Positions 26,431 through 27,751 of a stretch of DNA of 64,000 nucleotides are shown here, piece after piece. The DNA is from an uncultured Bacteroidota bacterium (GTDB lineage Bacteria > Bacteroidota > Bacteroidia > Flavobacteriales > Flavobacteriaceae). Within the stretch, counting starts at the first letter, position 1. Each line of letters starts with the position of its first letter. Location: assembly GCA_902557655.1 (NCBI GenBank), contig CACEAZ010000007.1, forward strand, positions 1-64,000, written 5' to 3'. The notes beneath the pieces are model-generated. The model was not told the DNA's origin. It did not search any database and worked only from the letters and a program-made list of their open reading frames with translations. A program made the position numbers and the translations under genes.

Positions 26431-26440
26431 TTAATTTTTT

Positions 26441-26464
26441 CAAAAAAAACCCCGCTAAATGCGG
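26441..26464 (-). terminator. Intrinsic terminator after xerC
   Basis: On the minus strand CCGC (26464-26461), a 5-base loop and GCGG (26455-26452) are followed by GG and eight T. It probably ends the rpsU-xerC transcript before the tRNA genes. The stem is short (4 bp), but the T-run is strong. Confidence 0.6.
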
Positions 26465-26468
26465 AATG

Positions 26469-26497
26469 CAAATGTAAATATTTATTTTTTCAAACAA
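26469..26497 (-). promoter_or_regulatory. Putative promoter of the tRNA cluster
   Basis: Minus strand TTG (26497-26495), 18 bp and TACATTTG (26476-26469) fit the consensus. Transcription would start about at the first base of the terminator hairpin, so the hairpin would not be fully effective on tRNA transcripts from here (inference). Confidence 0.5.
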
Positions 26498-26539
26498 AAC
26501 AAATTATATTTTTTTTTAAGAAGTAAAAAAAATAAAAAA

Positions 26540-27430
26540 CTAACCTTTATTTCTGGGATGAGATTTCTTAAAAACTTTTTTCATTTCCTCGATAGATCTA
26601 TTTGTATAAACCTGTGTAGCAGCTAGGCTTGTGTGTCCTAATAAATCCTTTACGGAATTTAAATCAGCACCATTATTTAATAGATGAGTTGCAAATGAAT
26701 GTCTAAGAATATGAGGGCTTTTTTTCTGTTTGGTTGAATATTTAGAAAAATATTTTTTTGTAATGCGATAAACCAGATTATCATAAATTTTTTTTCCTTT
26801 AAATGTTACAAAAAAATATTCATTGCTAACTTTAAAATTCAATTTTTCTCTAAAATCTAAATATTGTTTAATTAGAATTATAGTGGATTTGATCAACGGT
26901 ATATATCTCTCCTTCTTTCTTTTTCCAAGAACTTTGATAGTCTTATTATTTATATCAATATTTTTTGATTTTAAATTGATTAACTCCTGTCTCCTAATTC
27001 CAGTACTGTATAAAATTTCCAAAATCAATCGATCTCTGCAACCTTCAAAATTATCTTGAAAATTTACCGAATTTAAAACTTCATTAATTTCAGATTCAGA
27101 GAAAGGTAATTGAATTGTGGACTTTGTTTTTAATGCCTTATGAGATGAAAGGGGGTTTTTAGTTATTGTATTTGTTTTAAGTAAAAACTTATAGTAACTA
27201 TTTAGGGAAGAAATTTTTCTGTTGATGGTTTTGTTAGTGATTCCAGTATCTACTAAAAAAACAATCCATGACCTAATTTGGGAATAAACAGCATTTTTAA
27301 TCGAATTTTGTGAAAACTCTTTTAGGTTAAAACTTCTAAATGATTGTAAATCATTTTTGTATGCGACAATCGTTTTTTCTGAGTATTTTTTTTCTAATAA
27401 AAGATAATCAAGAAAAGATTGAAATTCCAT
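26540..27430 (-). CDS. xerC: Tyrosine recombinase XerC/XerD
   Basis: The 296-residue protein has an N-terminal SAM-like core-binding domain (1-90) and a C-terminal catalytic domain. The catalytic set is R146, K170, H240, R243, H266 and Y275, in motifs [20 protein letters not shown] and [13 protein letters not shown]. It resolves chromosome dimers at dif. In Flavobacteriia the copy beside rpsU is usually called XerC; I cannot separate C from D by sequence alone. No integron or phage context is present. The hpf gene that commonly follows in relatives is absent here. Confidence 0.93.
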
Positions 27431-27495: not shown

Positions 27496-27690
27496 TTAAA
27501 TATCTTCGTTGTCTCTAAGAGTTTGCACATACTGTGCTTTTTGTATTTCAGCTCTTCTTTTAACTGAAGGCTTTATAAACTCTTTTCTGGTTTGCAATGA
27601 TTTCTTAGTTCCAGTTTTGTCAAACTTTCTCTTGAAACGCTTCAATGCTCTATCGATATTTTCTCCGTCTTTAATTGGTATTATTAGCAT
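27496..27690 (-). CDS. rpsU: Ribosomal protein bS21
   Basis: This 64-residue basic protein (MLIIPIKDGENIDRALKRFKR, then KPSVKRR) sits near the 3' end of 16S rRNA. In Bacteroidia it is part of the pocket that hides the anti-Shine-Dalgarno. The gene has a perfect Shine-Dalgarno 7 bases before the ATG, a feature reported for Flavobacteriales rpsU and thought to permit autogenous control. It lies upstream of xerC. Confidence 0.97.
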   Translation of the reverse strand: MLIIPIKDGENIDRALKRFKRKFDKTGTKKSLQTRKEFIKPSVKRRAEIQKAQYVQTLRDNEDI

Positions 27691-27697
27691 ATTACAA

Positions 27698-27708
27698 ACC
27701 TCCTTTCT
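27698..27708 (-). promoter_or_regulatory. rpsU: Perfect 11-nt Shine-Dalgarno of rpsU
   Basis: The minus strand reads AGAAAGGAGGT, complementary over all 11 bases to the usual 16S rRNA 3' tail, with 7 bases to the ATG. Other starts in this window show no comparable motif, so this is a special regulatory site rather than a routine ribosome-binding site. Confidence 0.85.
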
Positions 27709-27723
27709 TTAGTATTAAAGGTG

Positions 27724-27751
27724 CAAATATAAACTAAAAATAATCTAACAA
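27724..27751 (-). promoter_or_regulatory. Promoter of rpsU
   Basis: Minus strand TTG (27751-27749), 17 bp and TATATTTG (27731-27724). The predicted leader of about 28 bases begins shortly before the Shine-Dalgarno. Confidence 0.65.

Follow-up and report, generated by a model that had tools for sequence, protein, structure and literature searches.

The rpsU locus and its Shine-Dalgarno site

The window, the whole 64,000-nucleotide stretch of DNA analysed here, contains rpsU on the minus strand (27496..27690), encoding ribosomal protein bS21 of 64 aa. The rpsU ORF scores 53.4 bits against the NCBIfam model TIGR00030 (S21p; cut-off 28.95), and residues 1–61 align with bS21 of Flavobacterium johnsoniae (PDB 7jil chain z) at an E value of 1.5e-26, the two proteins being nearly identical. 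Tyr54, assigned by position, is kept in the window protein. In relatives, the same position holds Tyr in 77 of 80 sequences and His in the other 3. The C-terminal Tyr54 of bS21 contacts the 16S tail (PMC9976891). The genes for bS18 and bS6 are also present in this genome, both at C10.

The minus-strand leader of rpsU reads ...ATACTAAAGAAAGGAGGTTTGTAAT-ATG, with the ATG at 27690. It carries an extended Shine-Dalgarno (SD) sequence, AGAAAGGAGGT (27698..27708, minus strand), which is separated from the start codon by the 7-nt spacer TTGTAAT (27691..27697, minus strand). A single 16S gene was detected in the genome (G000:C2:36248-37769), the 3' end of which is GGAACACCTCCTTTCTAG, giving the anti-SD (ASD) tail ACCTCCTTTCT. 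The SD is complementary to all of 16S nt 1534–1544, forming 11 bp with zero mismatches. The duplex of the rpsU leader with 16S 1532–1544 reaches -17.5 kcal/mol (RNAduplex), and little structure is computed over the SD itself (-2.0 kcal/mol). The sequence-only reading of this DNA had described a perfect 11-nt SD located 7 nt before the rpsU ATG, and had named a mismatched 16S tail as one observation that would count against it; the tail of the genome's own 16S matches exactly.

Upstream of the SD, we find a promoter of the Bacteroidota -33/-7 type, TTG-N17-TATATTTG (27724..27751, minus strand), the TTTG of which ends 33 nt upstream of the rpsU ATG. The -7 element TAnnTTTG occurs in 79/79 relatives, mostly 28–39 nt before the ATG, where about 7 would be expected from shuffles. 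The complete TTG-N16-22-TAnnTTTG occurs in 45 relatives, with about 1 expected. A sigma-70 promoter scan of the rpsU strand found nothing, because Bacteroidota promoters differ. The good promoter suggested earlier just upstream of the gene is thus present, and is of the Bacteroidota rather than the sigma-70 type. Given how far a transcript start normally lies from its -7 element, the rpsU leader is predicted to be about 26–29 nt long.

Downstream of rpsU, after a gap of 65 nt, lies xerC on the same strand (26540..27430, minus strand). TIGR02224 is its best hit, below the equivalog cut-off, and the synteny is conserved, with xerC located downstream of rpsU in 75 of 76 relatives. The gene for the hibernation-promoting factor, hpf, comes after rpsU-xerC in most Flavobacteriaceae, and it follows xerC in 60 of the 67 relatives with enough flanking sequence. 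In the window, the corresponding slot (26431-26539) lacks hpf, and xerC is followed by tRNA genes 110 nt on. The position after xerC also lacks hpf in L095, L096, L101, L107, L111, L112 and L113, and L112 lacks xerC too. A PF02482 family search, in which several genomes were incomplete, detected no hpf in the window's genome (G000) or in the small genomes of the close relatives L095, L096, L101, L107, L111 and L113; the same search found hpf in the genomes of six other relatives.

Strong SD pairing is confined to rpsU among the examined starts

Start energies were computed for 394 other ORF starts (minimum ORF length 90 aa), taken from the window and twenty 20-kb stretches (400 kb), covering about one third of the genome. 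A pattern search for AGGAGG covered the whole available genome, which is 81.7% complete. The strongest of the 394 starts reaches -12.6 kcal/mol, so that rpsU is 4.9 kcal/mol stronger; since the ORFs were called mechanically with a simple start choice, individual starts may be misplaced, whereas the distribution is clear. The mean energy of the SD window is -0.6 kcal/mol at these starts versus -1.6 kcal/mol in mock windows. Pairing of -5 kcal/mol or better is seen at 19 starts versus 47 mock windows (Fisher p = 4e-4), and SDs are therefore avoided at the starts of this genome, in line with the published pattern of Flavobacteriales. The starts of tuf, rplL, rpoB and others in the window are SD-less, with energies of -5.6 kcal/mol or weaker, as the sequence-only reading had claimed. 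Many equally strong SDs would also have counted against that reading, and none stands at any of the 394 starts.

In the whole available genome, AGGAGG-N3-10-ATG has 67 matches versus 58 for the reversed control, and nearly all of these sites lie within other reading frames. When 65 AGGAGG sites were inspected, rpsU alone combined pairing beyond -13.5 kcal/mol with a plausible ORF start (ORF of at least 60 aa).

Two look-alike sites were considered and set aside. The genome holds one other AGAAAGGAGG-N4-12-ATG site, at C15:13820. The sequence AGAAAGGAGGGAAGTTATAATG at this place (G000:C15:13820-13841; L053) resembles an extended SD followed by ATG and recurs across Flavobacteriales in many relatives. 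As a candidate for a second conserved SD it was rejected, being antisense to the conserved peptide HYNFPPFSTGE of polynucleotide phosphorylase (pnp). The start at -12.6 kcal/mol belongs to a 340-aa ORF (C10:3701; L219:3701-4723) whose protein begins MKNLSIIEKF, with AAGGAGGT 5 nt before the ATG. It ranks next after rpsU among SD-like starts, at about the level that chance would give among some 400 starts.

The pairing is conserved in relatives

We compared the closest 80 matches, which are not independent of each other and whose labels are nearly all Flavobacteriaceae, Flavobacteriales or Bacteroidetes (for the most part Flavobacteriaceae or uncultured Bacteroidetes, with a different label on the MAG L151). 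The leader was readable in 79 of these 80 rpsU loci. All 79 leaders pair with the 16S tail over at least 10 bp. Their energies range from -16.7 to -20.7 kcal/mol, whereas mock windows have a mean of -0.7 kcal/mol. The comparison across relatives suggested earlier therefore reveals strong pairing throughout. The SD lies directly before rpsU, about 5–9 nt from the ATG, while the rest of the leader is variable.

The core was alignable in 74 leaders; in 36 of them, one position opposite a U carries G rather than A, and the helix is kept by a G·U pair. The common AGAGAGGAGGT leaders might have tracked an altered 16S tail, as in a covariation of 16S and rpsU. This idea was rejected: the 16S tails recovered from 18 relatives are all identical, and the substitution forms a G-U wobble.

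A putative autoregulatory switch of bS21

Genetic and biochemical experiments in F. johnsoniae have established autoregulation of bS21 (PMC9976891). Ribosomes that lack the protein there have an exposed anti-SD, translate rpsU preferentially and are quicker to initiate on it (McNutt et al. 2023; PMC9976891). On the basis of homology and sequence, we consider that rpsU in the window is very probably the same autoregulatory translation switch known from Flavobacteriales (probability about 0.93). The locus combines exact 11-bp complementarity, uniqueness among the examined starts and conservation with an intact bS21 carrying Tyr54, and bS18 and bS6 accompany it in the genome. The earlier proposal that rpsU is autoregulated is thus supported, for a mechanism already demonstrated in F. 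johnsoniae.

By analogy with F. johnsoniae, the switch in this host would depend on hiding the tail in complete subunits and on the selective use of rpsU by ribosomes without bS21. In the complete 30S subunit, the 16S 3' tail would sit in a pocket formed by bS21, bS18 and bS6, a sequestration that structure 7JIL suggests (PMC9976891, citing Jha et al. 2021). With the tail held there, SDs would go unread, which would explain why nearly all genes lack one. In a 30S subunit without bS21, the tail would be free to form its 11-bp helix with the rpsU leader, so that initiation would preferentially occur there. The level of bS21 would then rise through rpsU initiation until the pocket is refilled.

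A strong SD on an unstructured leader could instead give constitutively high translation of rpsU with no feedback, and feedback is invisible from sequence alone. Yet bS21-replete ribosomes of F. johnsoniae use SDs poorly, and an rpsU'-gfp fusion rises 3- to 4-fold upon mutation or depletion of bS21 (PMC9976891). SDs are also near-absent at the other genes examined, even at highly expressed genes of the window, which shows that the lineage does not rely on SDs to express genes strongly; we regard the constitutive explanation as very unlikely. A match arising by chance, or as a remnant of coding or other sequence, is far less credible still and hardly deserves weight. Motifs rich in A and G do turn up repeatedly, through chance or antisense to coding sequence, as the C15 site antisense to pnp illustrates, but the retention of the helix, exact or G-U-paired, in 79/79 leaders at a spacing of about 5–9 nt refutes this origin.

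The autoregulatory reading could be extended to the neighbourhood of the gene. Since this streamlined marine lineage has no hpf at its usual place two genes downstream, and so lacks the hibernation factor, it might depend more heavily on the rpsU switch for maintaining its ribosomes, a speculation to which we give very little credence.

Comparison with known systems

The published sequence criteria ask for the strongest SD and for pairing below -13 kcal/mol, and the window rpsU shows both, so the finding is correct and ordinary. It is also already known, the mechanism having been published and tested (PMC9976891). About 80% of Flavobacteriales satisfy these criteria and are predicted to have rpsU autoregulation, and in most members of the order an SD of this kind is carried by a single gene (PMC9976891). 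Judged by the genome's own 16S tail, the published specialised-ribosome circuit would thereby extend, with no new mechanism, to a lineage of marine flavobacteria that is uncultured and has a small genome.

As in F. johnsoniae, the rpsU SD is extended over the whole 16S 3' tail, and its energy of -17.5 kcal/mol falls within the published range of -14 to -21 kcal/mol (PMC9976891). Both organisms share rpsU as the only strong SD found, the canonical CCTCC anti-SD, and bS21 Tyr54 with bS18 and bS6. The short leader predicted here comes near the 25 nt of its F. johnsoniae counterpart (PMC9976891). The host is a different flavobacterium, which is marine and uncultured and has a small genome; its regulatory parts, as read from the sequence, are the same. 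Covariation of the rpsU SD with the ASD has been described in Chryseobacterium relatives, in a 2021 paper citing Jha et al. 2021 (PMC8710568). As in that type, the rpsU leader of the window matches its own 16S tail; unlike that type, which has the alternative ASD UCUCA and a compensated rpsU SD (PMC8710568), the ASD here is the canonical CCUCC.
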